In this document: in pieces, positions 2,907 to 29,199 of the stretch | Layout: every line of letters starts with the position of its first letter | How positions within the stretch are numbered: position 1 is the stretch's first letter | Virus record (IMG/VR): IMGVR_UViG_3300028027_000152 | Coordinates: 1 to 32,176 of that record | From: a virus | DNA: 32,176 nucleotides | Strand: one strand, 5' to 3' | Notes under the pieces: model-generated | Database searches by the model: none | What the model was told of the DNA's origin: nothing | What the model saw: only the letters and a program-made list of their open reading frames with translations | Program-made: the position numbers and the translations under genes

Positions 2907-3167
2907 ATGGACAAGATACTCAATAAACCTTTTAGACTGCCTTCTGGATCAGGAAAGAAATTTGGAGTATATGTTAAGAGCAAGCAAACAGGAAAAATTA
3001 TTAAAGTTACTTTTGGGGATCCTAATCTATCTATTAAGAGAGATGATCCAGAGAGGAAAGCCAGTTTTAGAGCTAGGCATAATTGCGAAGATGCTAAGGA
3101 TAAGACAACTCCTAAGTATTGGTCTTGTCGTATGTGGTCGAGTAAGCCAGTGAGTAAGATTGTATGA
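2907..3167 (+). CDS. Conserved phage protein, DUF5872-like
   Basis: 86 residues, basic. The C-terminal half carries SIKRDDPERKASFRARHNC, then DKTTPKYWSCRMW. This run is a widely conserved signature in phage proteins, often found near head or capsid-maturation genes; I recall it as DUF5872. C and H residues could bind metal, but that is inference. Its ATG abuts the previous stop and its end overlaps the ParB-like gene by 4 nt. No enzymatic function can be assigned. Confidence 0.65.
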   Translation: MDKILNKPFRLPSGSGKKFGVYVKSKQTGKIIKVTFGDPNLSIKRDDPERKASFRARHNCEDAKDKTTPKYWSCRMWSSKPVSKIV

Positions 3168-3754
3168 ATGCAATACGTATTTCAATCAAAGACATTAAAA
3201 GCAATCCGAACAATCCCAGAATTATCAAAGACGATAAATTTAAAAAGCTAGTTCAATCTATCATAGACTTTCCTAAAATGCTTGAAATACGACCGATCGT
3301 AATAAATGATGAGATGGTAGTCTTAGGTGGTAACATGAGACTTAAAGCATGTAAAGAGGCAGGATTGAAAGAGATACCTATCATCAAGGCAAGTGATCTT
3401 ACACCAGAACAACAGAGAGAATTTATCATCAAAGACAATGTAGGTTTTGGGGAATGGGATTGGGCTATGCTTGCAAATGAGTGGGATTCGGATGAACTAC
3501 AAGACTGGGGTTTAGATATACCTGGGTTTAATGTAGATGAAAATAAAATGGGTGATGAATTTAGTTTGCCAGATGGGGACAAAGCACCATTTCAACAAAT
3601 GACTTTTACATTAGCAGATGAGCAGGCTACATTTATTCAAAATGCAATATCAGATATTAAACAAACAGAAGAATATAAGTATGTGGAAACTTTTGGAAAT
3701 GAAAATTCAAATGGAAATGCTCTTTATTTATTGGTAACTAAATGTCTAAAGTAA
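3164..3754 (+). CDS. ParB-like N-terminal (ParB/Srx) domain protein
   Basis: 196 residues. The N-terminal ParB domain is visible as IKSNPNNPRIIKD (box I style) and MVVLGGNMRLKACKEAG at about residues 51-67 (GGNxRLxA, the ParB nucleotide-binding box). Phage proteins of this type also share DNVGFGEWDWAMLANEWD around residue 90-107 and often lie beside or fused to DNA methyltransferases. There is no HTH and no ParA partner, so plasmid partition is unlikely. A DNA-modification helper or nuclease role is more plausible. The ATG overlaps the preceding stop (ATGA). The gene overlaps the Mom-like gene by 13 nt. Confidence 0.8.
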   Translation: MNAIRISIKDIKSNPNNPRIIKDDKFKKLVQSIIDFPKMLEIRPIVINDEMVVLGGNMRLKACKEAGLKEIPIIKASDLTPEQQREFIIKDNVGFGEWDWAMLANEWDSDELQDWGLDIPGFNVDENKMGDEFSLPDGDKAPFQQMTFTLADEQATFIQNAISDIKQTEEYKYVETFGNENSNGNALYLLVTKCLK

Positions 3755-4542
3755 AAGATATTATAGTAAAAATTATACCTGCAAAGATTGCAAATGAGTT
3801 TATAAAAAAATATCATTATAGTGAGAAAGTAGTTATTGGTGGAAATGGTGTTCATTTTGGTTGTTTTCTTGATAACAAATTGCACGGAGTTTTAAGTTTT
3901 GGAAATCCATTAGATAAAAGAAAAATATTGCCTTTAGTTAAAGATACAAAATGGAATGAAATGTTAGAATTAAATAGAATGGCTTTTGACGATTGGTTAC
4001 CTAAGAATTCAGAAAGTAGATGCTTATCAATATCGATTAAATTATTAAAAAAAAATGCTCCACATATAAAATGGATTTTAAGTTTCGCAGATGGAACTCA
4101 ATGTGGAGACGGAACTATATATAGAGCTAGTGGGTTCAATCTTACTGCAATTAAAAAAAATAACCAATTAATAAAAACTAGCGATGGCAAAATAGTTCAT
4201 AAGCACTCATTGAACCAAGTAAATTTCAAAGGAGAGGGTGGAGATAAAAATTTTAAAGCATCAAATTTGCTTCAACTTACAAATGGATCATATAGCACTA
4301 AAAAATATTTTGAAGCAATAGGTAAAACATATGAGCCTTTAATAGGCTTTCAACTTCGCTACATATACCTAATAGATAAAACTTGCAAAATAACAGTTCC
4401 AATATTACCTTTTTCTAAGATTGACGAAATGAAGGCAGGTATGTACAAAGGTAAAAGTATAAGTATTGAAGATAGAAAACCTAAAAGCGTATTAAGCATT
4501 GATAATGATGCAACTCAAATCCATGAGGAGAAGGCAGTGTGA
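3742..4542 (+). CDS. Mom-like adenine modification protein (GNAT-type)
   Basis: 266 residues. It resembles the family of phage Mu Mom, a GNAT-fold protein that converts adenine in phage DNA to N6-carbamoylmethyladenine and so blocks many restriction enzymes. Supporting segments are IKKYHYSEKVVIGGNGVHFG (about 21-40), LELNRMAFDDWLP (75-87), LSISIKLLKKNAPHIKWILS (95-114) and ADGTQCGDGTIYRASGF (116-132), the family's most typical block. It follows the ParB-like gene with a 13-nt overlap. No Com-like regulator gene is seen. The exact chemistry and target bases are inferred only from the family. Confidence 0.75.
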   Translation: MSKVKDIIVKIIPAKIANEFIKKYHYSEKVVIGGNGVHFGCFLDNKLHGVLSFGNPLDKRKILPLVKDTKWNEMLELNRMAFDDWLPKNSESRCLSISIKLLKKNAPHIKWILSFADGTQCGDGTIYRASGFNLTAIKKNNQLIKTSDGKIVHKHSLNQVNFKGEGGDKNFKASNLLQLTNGSYSTKKYFEAIGKTYEPLIGFQLRYIYLIDKTCKITVPILPFSKIDEMKAGMYKGKSISIEDRKPKSVLSIDNDATQIHEEKAV

Positions 4543-23894: not shown

Positions 23895-24395
23895 CTAATC
23901 TAACTTAATATTTTTCCAACTATTTTTAAATGTTTCCTCAGTATTTCCAATCTCGCTATCATATTGCTTTACAGCCAATTCAGTTAAATAGATTATAATA
24001 ACTATCGGCAATATACTCATAATAAGCGACTGCCCAAACATCATAACAGTTCCGAGGTCATCAAGGGCATTCTTACAAGATCCGGCACAAGCAAAATAAG
24101 TAGTGGTATTGGCACCAAGGGAAATCATAAAGGCAAACATTGACGAGCCTAACATTAGTGGGTATATTCTTGCAAGGTGAAATATTATAATACTCACGTC
24201 GAGAGCCATAGTGATTCCGATTGCGTAAATAGTTAGGGATACCTCAGAGCCGAGAAAATCTATTCGGGTCTGGCCTAGAAAGTATTTAAGAGCAGAGTAA
24301 TTAGATACTACGCCGATGGTTCCGAAAAATATTACTAAAGATAGTTTTAATCGTTTGGTTTTAAAAAACTCAAAGAATTTTGATTTATTTTGCAT
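23895..24395 (-). CDS. Four-helix integral membrane protein, only leftward gene
   Basis: 166 residues with four hydrophobic segments at about 17-39 (LSLVIFFGTIGVVSNYSALK), 52-74, 78-103 (YPLMLGSSMFAFMISLGA) and 114-141 (FGQSLIMSILPIVIIIYLTE). A basic N-terminus (KSKFFEFFKTKRLK) predicts an inside start. Two Cys sit in the loop ACAGSCKNA. SD AGGAG precedes the ATG on the minus strand. It is not recognised as a known family. Its opposite orientation means independent expression: superinfection exclusion, immunity or lysis control are candidates, all inferred. Confidence 0.75.
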   Translation of the reverse strand: MQNKSKFFEFFKTKRLKLSLVIFFGTIGVVSNYSALKYFLGQTRIDFLGSEVSLTIYAIGITMALDVSIIIFHLARIYPLMLGSSMFAFMISLGANTTTYFACAGSCKNALDDLGTVMMFGQSLIMSILPIVIIIYLTELAVKQYDSEIGNTEETFKNSWKNIKLD

Positions 24396-24450
24396 GGTTA
24401 TTGTCTCCTAGACATAATATCTTTCAAGACATAAAAAAACTTAAGTAAAA

Positions 24451-24500
24451 TATTTTTTATTATTTTTTTCTTTTTTTTTATTTTTTTGTTTACTTTTTTT
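24451..24500. other. T-rich tract in divergent intergenic region
   Basis: About 50 bases made almost entirely of Ts with a few A, C and G, upstream of the leftward gene and of the rightward early operon. On the minus strand this is a set of A-tracts, known to bend DNA or serve as promoter UP elements. No hairpin is attached to it. Confidence 0.6.
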
Positions 24501-27247: not shown

Positions 27248-27435
27248 CAGATATACAAATAGAAAGCGAATTAATAACCTTGATCACAGTCGAGGCATAC
27301 TTAGAACGATCCTTGAAAAGTATCCTAAGCAAAAAAGAAAAGGATCAATTGAAACAGATTCGAAGATCACTAAATGAAACTAGAGTAGCAATGCTTGAAT
27401 TGTTAGAGATTTATAAAGTGGAAGAGCATGTATGA
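27244..27435 (+). CDS. Small helical protein (63 aa)
   Basis: SD GGAGG at 27235-27239. An almost wholly helical, heptad-like protein (EAYLERSLKSILSKKEKDQL, NETRVAMLELLEIYK). No function is recognised. It overlaps the methyltransferase gene by 4 nt (ATGA). Confidence 0.6.
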   Translation: MTDIQIESELITLITVEAYLERSLKSILSKKEKDQLKQIRRSLNETRVAMLELLEIYKVEEHV

Positions 27436-28238
27436 AATCTACTGACATTTTATTTAATGACCATTTTCAAAATTTTAAACGATATCAAATTCCAAAGGCT
27501 CAATTAATAATTGCAGACATGCCATATAATCTTGGTAATAATGCTTACGCTTCAAATCCATCTTGGTATAAAGATGGTGACAATAAAAATGGAGAAAGCG
27601 AATTAGCAGGGACTGAATTTTTTGATACTGATAAAGATTTTAGACCAGCAGAATTTATGCATTTTTGTTCTCAAATGCTAAAGAAAGAACCAAAAGAAAA
27701 ATGTGATGCACCATGCATGATTGTATTTTGCGAGTTTGAGCAACAATTTTATTTAATAGAATTAGCTCGAAGATATGGAATAATGAATTATATTAATTTA
27801 GTATTTCGTAAAAATTTCTCTGCACAAGTCTTAAAGGCTAATATGAAAGTTGTTGGAAATTGTGAATATGGTTTATTGTTATACAGAGATAAACTTCCAA
27901 AGTTTAGAAATGAAGGTAAGATGGTTTTTAATTGTATTGATTGGGAAAAAGATAATAATGATTTTGAAAAAATTCATCCTACTCAAAAACCAGTAAAATT
28001 AATTAAAAAACTTATAAATATATTTACAGATGAAAATGATGTTGTAATTGATCCAGTCGCAGGAAGTGGATCAAGCATAATAGCAGGACTAGAGCTTAAT
28101 AGAAAATCTTTTGGATTTGAAATAAAAAAAGATTTTTATAGGCAATCTTGCAAATGGATAGATTACACGTTAGATAACATAAATAATTTAAAAACAATAG
28201 GATTTAAAAAAAATACTGTTGATAATTATTTATTTTAA
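27432..28238 (+). CDS. DNA methyltransferase (beta-class N6-A/N4-C type)
   Basis: 268 residues with the motif order of beta-class enzymes: catalytic IIADMPYNLG (D29-M30-P31-Y32, a variant of DPPY) near the N-terminus, HPTQKP (182-187) and the SAM-binding VIDPVAGSGSS (205-215) near the C-terminus. DMPY replaces the usual second residue, and the SAM loop reads AGSGS rather than AGSGT; activity is likely but not certain. No restriction partner is adjacent, so protection of phage DNA or regulation is more plausible than R-M. Target sequence is unknown. Confidence 0.8.
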   Translation: MKSTDILFNDHFQNFKRYQIPKAQLIIADMPYNLGNNAYASNPSWYKDGDNKNGESELAGTEFFDTDKDFRPAEFMHFCSQMLKKEPKEKCDAPCMIVFCEFEQQFYLIELARRYGIMNYINLVFRKNFSAQVLKANMKVVGNCEYGLLLYRDKLPKFRNEGKMVFNCIDWEKDNNDFEKIHPTQKPVKLIKKLINIFTDENDVVIDPVAGSGSSIIAGLELNRKSFGFEIKKDFYRQSCKWIDYTLDNINNLKTIGFKKNTVDNYLF

Positions 28239-28247
28239 CTTTACAAA
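28219..28247 (+). promoter_or_regulatory. Sigma70-type promoter for antirepressor gene
   Basis: TTGATA (28219-28224), a 17-bp spacer, and TACAAA (28242-28247). Transcription would start near 28254 and produce a leader of about 120 nt that contains the hairpins described for 28277-28369. The -35 lies inside the methyltransferase gene end. Confidence 0.6.
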
Positions 28248-28276
28248 AAACCTAAGCAACATAACATAGCACTAAG

Positions 28277-28369
28277 CCCGATGCCCTCACATCGGGTAGA
28301 TTCTTGAGGGAGAATCAAAACCTACCACAAATTTCTACCCATGCAATCGGGACTCAATTAAAGGAGTCC
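28277..28369 (+). promoter_or_regulatory. Structured 5' leader of antirepressor gene with SD-sequestering stem
   Basis: Three hairpins in a row: CCCGATG/CATCGGG (28277-28296), GATTCT/AGAATC (28299-28316) and GGACTC/GAGTCC (28350-28369). The last stem includes GAG of the SD AAAGGAG (28360-28366). A second ATCGGG (28346-28351) can pair with CCCGAT of hairpin 1 and would break the SD stem; CTACCC (28335-28340) can pair with GGGTAG (28294-28299). The alternatives are mutually exclusive, as in attenuators or riboswitches. No known class is recognised. Confidence 0.6.
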
Positions 28370-28373
28370 AATA

Positions 28374-29096
28374 ATGGAAAATCAAATAATTAATCAAAAC
28401 GATCCTAATATTTTAGGAACTATTCAATTTAAATATACTACTAAACAAATAGCTGAAGGATTTGAATGTGATGATAGTGCTATTAGACAAATTAAAAGTA
28501 GATATGAATCTGAATTTATTAAAGGAATAGATTGGAAAAATGATTTTGTGACAGATGTCACGAAAGGTCGTCCATCTGATATTTGGTCTAAAGAAGGCAT
28601 TATAAAACTTGCATCTAAATTAAAACTTACACCCAAGGCAATTGAGTTTTTAATAAGCATTAGAGTCGAAGAAGAAAACAAGATTAAAACCCCTAAGACA
28701 TTCGCTGAAGCGTTAAGGCTTGCCGCAGATCAACAGGAACAAATTGAAGAGCAACAAAAACAATTAGAAGAACAAAAGCCAAAGGTAGAATTAGCGAATA
28801 GTATAATTGGGCATAGGACAAACTTTAGTGTAAAAGAGTTTATTGATAACTTTAAAATAATTGTAGGTAAGAATAAGTTTTTAGAAATATTGAGAAATGA
28901 TGGAATTCTTATGGATCATCCAAACAGAAATCATCCATATCAACAATATTCTAAATATTTTAAAATTCAGAGAGTAATTAAAAATGAAGAGTCAAGAGAA
29001 AAGATTTTAATTACTCCTGAAGGTTATGTTTATCTATCTAAGAAATATCAAAATCTTATGGAAAAAATTGAAGTAAATTATTTAATAGAAAATTAA
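28374..29096 (+). CDS. KilAC-domain phage antirepressor-like protein
   Basis: 240 residues. The N-terminal region is novel (TTKQIAEGFECDDSAIRQIK, a possible HTH). The middle has TPKTFAEALRLAADQQEQIE followed by an E/Q coiled coil. The C-terminal KilAC/ANT domain is recognisable from NFSVKEFIDNFKIIVGKNKF, LEILRNDGILMDHPNRNHPY and KILITPEGYVYLSKKY. Antirepressors relieve repression to favour lytic growth, but in this window no CI-like target gene is visible, so it may act on a host or prophage repressor. It has its own promoter and a structured leader. Confidence 0.85.
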   Translation: MENQIINQNDPNILGTIQFKYTTKQIAEGFECDDSAIRQIKSRYESEFIKGIDWKNDFVTDVTKGRPSDIWSKEGIIKLASKLKLTPKAIEFLISIRVEEENKIKTPKTFAEALRLAADQQEQIEEQQKQLEEQKPKVELANSIIGHRTNFSVKEFIDNFKIIVGKNKFLEILRNDGILMDHPNRNHPYQQYSKYFKIQRVIKNEESREKILITPEGYVYLSKKYQNLMEKIEVNYLIEN

Positions 29097-29120: not shown

Positions 29121-29139
29121 GTCTAAGCCAACAAATTAA

Positions 29140-29168
29140 AGTCTAGTAGGCTACCAACCTACTAGACT
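29140..29168 (+). promoter_or_regulatory. Perfect 11-bp hairpin upstream of replication gene
   Basis: AGTCTAGTAGG (29140-29150), a 7-nt loop, CCTACTAGACT (29158-29168). No T run follows. It could bind a regulator as DNA, or act in RNA to set initiator synthesis. The next gene starts at 29200 with SD AAAGGA (29188-29193). Confidence 0.6.
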
Positions 29169-29199
29169 CACAACAACAAACTCAATCAAAGGATAAGAT

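Follow-up and report, generated by a model that had tools for sequence, protein, structure and literature searches.

Only a few phages, most of them infecting enterobacteria, are known to control antirepressors through a leader RNA complementary to its own operon (c4, CI, and IsrK). In P1 and P7, the leader of the antirepressor operon supplies C4 (RF01695; c4–a1b1 targets, RF03163), a structured antisense RNA that is processed to about 77 nt and acts in trans. In the IsrK–orf45–anrP system of Gifsy-1, the leader RNA base-pairs with sequence farther downstream, ahead of the antirepressor, and two exclusive structures result; ribosome access reportedly depends on this pairing, and a short form works in trans (PMC4825925). 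According to the same source, the P4 CI RNA (seqA–seqC) is a processed leader RNA that binds complementary stretches of the transcript it comes from. In P22, according to PMC12197685, a separate small antisense RNA, sar, pairs with the ant mRNA.

The window analyzed here is the whole 32,176-nt stretch, an IMG/VR virus record that codes for a terminase, a P22-type portal protein, and a Mom-like protein. The Mom-like DNA modification protein has a ParB-like/methyltransferase-related protein as its neighbor, upstream of the terminase (3164–4542). A very T-rich tract (24440–24500) lies 5′ of a short ORF and adjoins the only longer minus-strand ORF of its region (23895–24395). The leader under study is a 135-nt gap (28239–28373) that separates the stop of a DNA methylase gene (27432–28238) from the ATG of an antirepressor gene (28374). 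Within the methylase gene, 41 bp (28100–28140) match adenine methylase genes of Streptococcus prophages at 92.7% identity; the rest of the 1151-bp query has no shared sequence. All elements named in the initial annotation are present: hairpin 1, the hairpin around the Shine-Dalgarno sequence (SD), a second ATCGGG, and complementary GGGTAG and CTACCC segments. They belong to two alternative folds, referred to as states I and II, whose parts are as follows.

28240–28267, plus strand: promoter-like TTTACA-16-TAACAT at the 5′ edge of the conserved leader (weak, 9 of 12; putative function)
28276–28297, plus strand: hairpin 1 of state I, GCCCGATG-CCCTCA-CATCGGGT (folding; three double changes, all in L012)
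28277–28283, plus strand: antisense segment b′, the 5′ strand of hairpin 1
28284–28289, plus strand: loop 1, CCCTCA, complement of loop 2
28294–28301, plus strand: antisense segment a′, GGGTAGAT, overlapping hairpins 1 and 2 (pairing, covariation)
28299–28316, plus strand: hairpin 2 of state I, GATTCT-TGAGGG-AGAATC (folding; double changes at two pairs, plus G-U variants)
28305–28310, plus strand: loop 2, TGAGGG, complement of loop 1 (five loop variants, every one fully complementary)
28333–28340, plus strand: target a, TTCTACCC, the state II partner of a′ (pairing, covariation)
28345–28351, plus strand: target b, AATCGGG (CATCGGG in relatives), the state II partner of b′ (pairing, covariation)
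28350–28369, plus strand: SD-sequestering hairpin, GGACTC-AATTAAAG-GAGTCC (folding; an equivalent can be drawn in 10/10 leaders)
28360–28366, plus strand: SD, AAAGGAG, 7 nt from the ATG at 28374
28374–29096, plus strand: antirepressor gene, 240 aa, KilAC/ANT domain (PF03374, 57.1 bits; phrog_63)

The layout recalls that of C4, in that b′ and a′ are complementary to targets a and b, which lie in that order just 5′ of the ribosome site. In contrast to C4, in which one closing stem surrounds two hairpins, the leader has two tandem hairpins and no closing stem, and its antisense segments sit in stems, where those of C4 are looped or single-stranded. Target b is upstream of the SD in the leader but over it in the C4 system, where the P1 pairing represses, and the icd-like gene of P1 has no counterpart in the window. 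The C4 covariance model did not match the leader up to an E value of 5 (P1 control, 68.8 bits), nor did a scan of the leader against Rfam, at gathering score and up to the same E value, yield any family, riboswitch, or thermometer. Membership in the C4 family was rejected on the missing Rfam match and the different fold; the likeness in layout stands.

By behavior, the nearest system is IsrK, with two exclusive leader structures before an antirepressor and a trans-acting short form. IsrK has a terminator and a 45-codon ORF route, both absent from the window, and its inactive cis fold is the small RNA paired with the downstream stretch, whereas such pairing (state II) is here predicted to be the more open form. 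The IsrK model (RF01394) matched none of eight records, with a positive control that was silent too, and whole-Rfam scans also returned no IsrK match. The leader shares with P4 CI RNA the pairing with complementary stretches of the transcript that carries it; as described in PMC4825925, CI controls transcription termination of replication genes, whereas no plus-strand terminator was found between 27900 and 29300 of the window. With P22 sar it would have in common RNA control of antirepressor translation (PMC12197685), but sar is a separate antisense RNA and the leader is self-complementary. By analogy, the leader probably resembles c4, CI, and IsrK control in an unrelated RNA, and a short form may act in trans, as for c4 and IsrK.

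Covariation of the two exclusive folds

The leader folds with a predicted energy of −33.5 kcal/mol, below all 200 dinucleotide shuffles (z −4.17). In hairpin 1, the arms CCCGATG (28277–28283) and CATCGGG (28290–28296) are lengthened by a G-U pair (28276–28297); the arms of hairpin 2 are GATTCT (28299–28304) and AGAATC (28311–28316), and those of the SD hairpin are GGACTC (28350–28355) and GAGTCC (28364–28369). Related leaders were found in nine further phages (see below), and comparison among the ten shows three helices of state I, including a pairing between loops 1 and 2, two helices of state II, and the mutual exclusion of the two states.

Five loop variants occur (CCCTCA/TGAGGG, CGCCCA/TGGGCG, CCCATA/TATGGG, CCGTCA/TGACGG, and, in L094, CCCTAT/ATAGGG inside 7-nt loops), each fully complementary to its own partner only. 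In hairpin 1, GATG/CATC is replaced by AGAG/CTCT in L012. On the ungapped alignment A3, comprising hairpin 1, hairpin 2, and the loop–loop pairing (20 pairs), 140 of 140 cells are paired and nine pairs show double changes; the score was reached by 0 of 500 shuffles, and slid versions are only 35–53% paired. The initial annotation had held that hairpin 1 and the SD hairpin can coexist, and both indeed belong to state I; hairpin 2 and the loop–loop match were absent from it. The SD hairpin is formed from a different sequence in L011 (CTCGGC/GCTGAG), and its loop holds an inserted hairpin in L012 (TATAAC-AAAA-GTTATA, ~3440–3465) and in L024 (GTTTC-AAAAT-GAAAC, ~1955–1985), with the ends of the SD stem intact in both.

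In state II, CCCGATG and GGGTAGAT pair with ATCGGG and (A)TCTACCC, immediately 5′ of the SD hairpin. The a′–a pairing joins GGGTAGA (28294–28300) to TCTACCC (28334–28340), and ATCGGG of target b (28346–28351) shares G28350–G28351 with the SD stem. Target a reads ATCTACCC, ATCCACCC, ATCCATCC, ATCCACTC, or ATCTACTC in relatives, and the hairpin 1 arm plus linker (GCCCGATG...GGGTAGAT) pairs with the a/b targets or their variants in 10/10 leaders (−21.0 to −27.3 kcal/mol), reaching into the hairpin 1 loop in L012, L011, L023, and L024. The duplex energy alone is only moderately unusual, with 1–15 of 300 shuffles as good in nine leaders and 0 of 300 in L024.

Counted on concatenated segments (alignment A5), with the b register of L012 and L011 picked to maximize pairing, a′a and b′b are 94% paired, and their covariation score was reached by 0 of 500 shuffles; with the loop–loop pairing added, and the L094 loops cut by one base each in this combined alignment, 95.8% of cells are paired and 18 carry double changes. 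The linker base A28298 is particularly informative. It is unpaired in state I and has its state II partner in target a, and it is changed to G in L011, L023, L024, and L094, each time with U changed to C in target a. The annotated GGGTAG–CTACCC alternative is part of a′a, and the proposal of mutually exclusive folds, with selection acting on each, is upheld by covariation of the pairs of both states across homologs. The helices of both states keep G-U pairs on the plus strand, where the other strand would have A-C mismatches. Since the homologs all belong to one phage group, the number of independent changes is small, with five loop variants and with double changes in hairpin 1 confined to L012. 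A second target elsewhere in the window was sought; none of the best-scoring matches had the a+b layout, these being unrelated G-rich stretches.

Linkage of the leader to downstream regulators

Related phage contigs were gathered from IMG/VR by antirepressor, neighbor-protein, and terminase searches. The leader is carried by ten related, uncultured, podovirus-like phages: that of the window, L013, L006, L014, L010, L011, L012, L023, L024, and L094, the last recovered by a covariance model built without it (E 3e-5). On whole records, the covariance model finds one significant leader copy each. No match to the leader was found in 50,697 phage records; a pattern scan of 84,980 species genomes gave three matches, all in high-GC sequence without hairpin 2, and broader patterns in viral contigs gave chance sites only, apart from the known relatives. 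A 14-nt match in L095/G001 was rejected as chance-looking: its surroundings are not leader-like, and the covariance model finds nothing in the record.

Across the ten phages, the leader is more conserved than the gene that follows it. Between the window and L013, the leaders are 95.6% identical, while the proteins match over the C-terminal domain only, at 42%. The protein of the window passes the curated cut-off of PF03374 (57.1 bits against 25.3). The protein behind the leader has ANT in the window and L014, Bro-N plus ANT in L013, and is a phrog_63-type regulator in L010 and L024. In L006, an unassigned 134-aa ORF (1594–1998) takes the place of the antirepressor directly 3′ of the leader; in L011, a likewise unassigned 90-aa ORF (545–817) does so and is followed by an antirepressor relative. 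On the other side, the conserved block starts in most relatives immediately 3′ of the stop of the upstream gene, which varies. Sequence comparison thus shows a modular linkage of the leader to antirepressors, and the leader–regulator unit appears to move as a cassette, since the window terminase is nearest to those of L008–L012 (86–87%) whereas its leader is nearest to that of L013.

Transcription may start at the edge of the leader itself. TTTACA is kept in 10/10 leaders and lies 21 nt 5′ of TAGNAYTAAG in 9/10; a constant −10 element was not found across the ten, and the weak support for the promoter-like site at 28240–28267 reflects four such sites found against seven expected in shuffles. 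Beyond the antirepressor, a long perfect hairpin (AGTCTAGTAGG/CCTACTAGACT, 29139–29169) occupies the interval before the next gene and is kept in L013; it is terminator-like on the minus strand only, and the GGTAG of the leader is a possible pairing partner of its loop, CTACCAA.

The initial annotation framed the downstream gene as a lysis–lysogeny type regulator. The antirepressor assignment holds, but the wider framing is less secure: a temperate lifestyle is assumed from the antirepressor alone, as no tyrosine integrase (PF00589), serine recombinase (PF00239), or HTH_3 repressor (PF01381) was recognized in the leader-bearing records searched.

A bistable model and its alternatives

Because ten related phages hold both folds by matching base changes, the two-fold leader is probably a real control switch. 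The favored reading, to which we assign a probability of roughly 60%, is that the leader, a conserved and modular RNA, is bistable and controls the translation of the antirepressor gene that follows. In such a model, the two hairpins with complementary loops would arise immediately from the 5′ half (28276–28316), followed by the SD hairpin, giving state I with the SD closed. Transcription completes hairpins 1 and 2 well ahead of a and b, so that state I should come first. Segments a and b in the 3′ half amount to an antisense of the hairpin 1 arm with its middle omitted, and pairing of a′ and b′ with them, in cis or through a short 5′ fragment in trans, would dismantle hairpins 1 and 2 while b captures the outer strand of the SD hairpin. 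The SD and start region would then be cheaper to open, and translation would be favored (state II), with the equilibrium set by kinetics or by RNA in trans. The sign of control would accordingly be closed in state I and open in state II.

Computed energies are compatible with such a switch. The two states are predicted to be nearly equal, differing by −3.5 to +2.9 kcal/mol in 9/10 leaders and by −7.1 in L024 (pseudoknots ignored), and the path from state I to state II carries a predicted barrier of ~8–15 kcal/mol. By ensemble energy, state II is more stable in 8/10 leaders; L013 and the window favor state I, the latter by 2.9 kcal/mol, a figure that leaves out loop–loop and pseudoknot energy. 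Opening the region from the SD to the start codon would cost 4.5–11.2 kcal/mol in state I and 2.1–6.1 in state II, the latter being lower in 10/10 leaders by 0.6–5.3 kcal/mol. The annotated CCCGAT–ATCGGG pairing had been expected to free the SD. The predicted easing bears this out in part; in the window, however, state II only shortens the SD hairpin, which loses two outer G-C pairs.

Two alternatives retain some plausibility. In the first, a putative small antisense RNA from the 5′ half would, as in c4-type repression, act in trans on a and b and block translation of the antirepressor, whether encoded by its own phage or by a superinfecting one, and so confer immunity. The P1 order of parts (structured antisense RNA, a, b, ribosome site, with b′ before a′) is shared, and an antirepressor lies downstream in both P1 and the window, which gives this reading a low but real probability; b2 of P1, however, covers the ribosome site and stops 11 nt short of the icd start, whereas b of the window stops 23 nt short of the ATG, on the 5′ side of the SD, with a pairing predicted to ease SD opening, and the lack of a C4 match and the different fold also count against it. 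A timer acting only in cis is about as tentative a proposal. The nascent leader would be trapped in state I and relax late to state II, or the reverse, thereby timing antirepressor synthesis without a trans partner or ligand. The early completion of hairpins 1 and 2, the predicted barrier, and the greater stability of state II in most leaders fit this proposal, but in the window and L013 unaided relaxation would not occur, as state I is the more stable, and the models omit the loop–loop pairing, which could favor either state.

The favored translational switch could also be taken further. The loop–loop pairing fits state II as well, in which it and a′a would be stems 1 and 2, respectively, of an H-type pseudoknot. 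If loops 1 and 2 paired between two leader molecules, or formed this pseudoknot core in state II, the state, and antirepressor translation with it, would depend on how much leader RNA is present and thereby on how many phage genomes have infected the cell; the leader would then be a new RNA family that senses copy number by RNA alone for the lysis decision, which we consider improbable. Still less probable is a ligand riboswitch, protein-binding leader, or RNA thermometer using the same two folds: exclusive folds before a ribosome site are its classical layout, but the loops and arms vary while pairing holds, the leader alignment has no obvious invariant unpaired pocket past the 5′ edge, and Rfam gave no match. 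A DNA-level role of the inverted repeats, as operators for a repressor or as a site of replication or recombination, is suggested by the palindrome CCCGATG-N6-CATCGGG and a further half-site (28345–28351) but is very unlikely, and the operator-type reading was rejected because the palindrome spacer covaries with the hairpin 2 loop and only one strand retains G-U pairs; the SD hairpin, moreover, persists despite changed sequence.

The two-state leader is small (~100 nt) and self-contained. That an unrelated RNA has the same layout, with the antirepressor exchanged behind it, suggests more than one origin of such control, with the RNA rather than the protein as the constant part.
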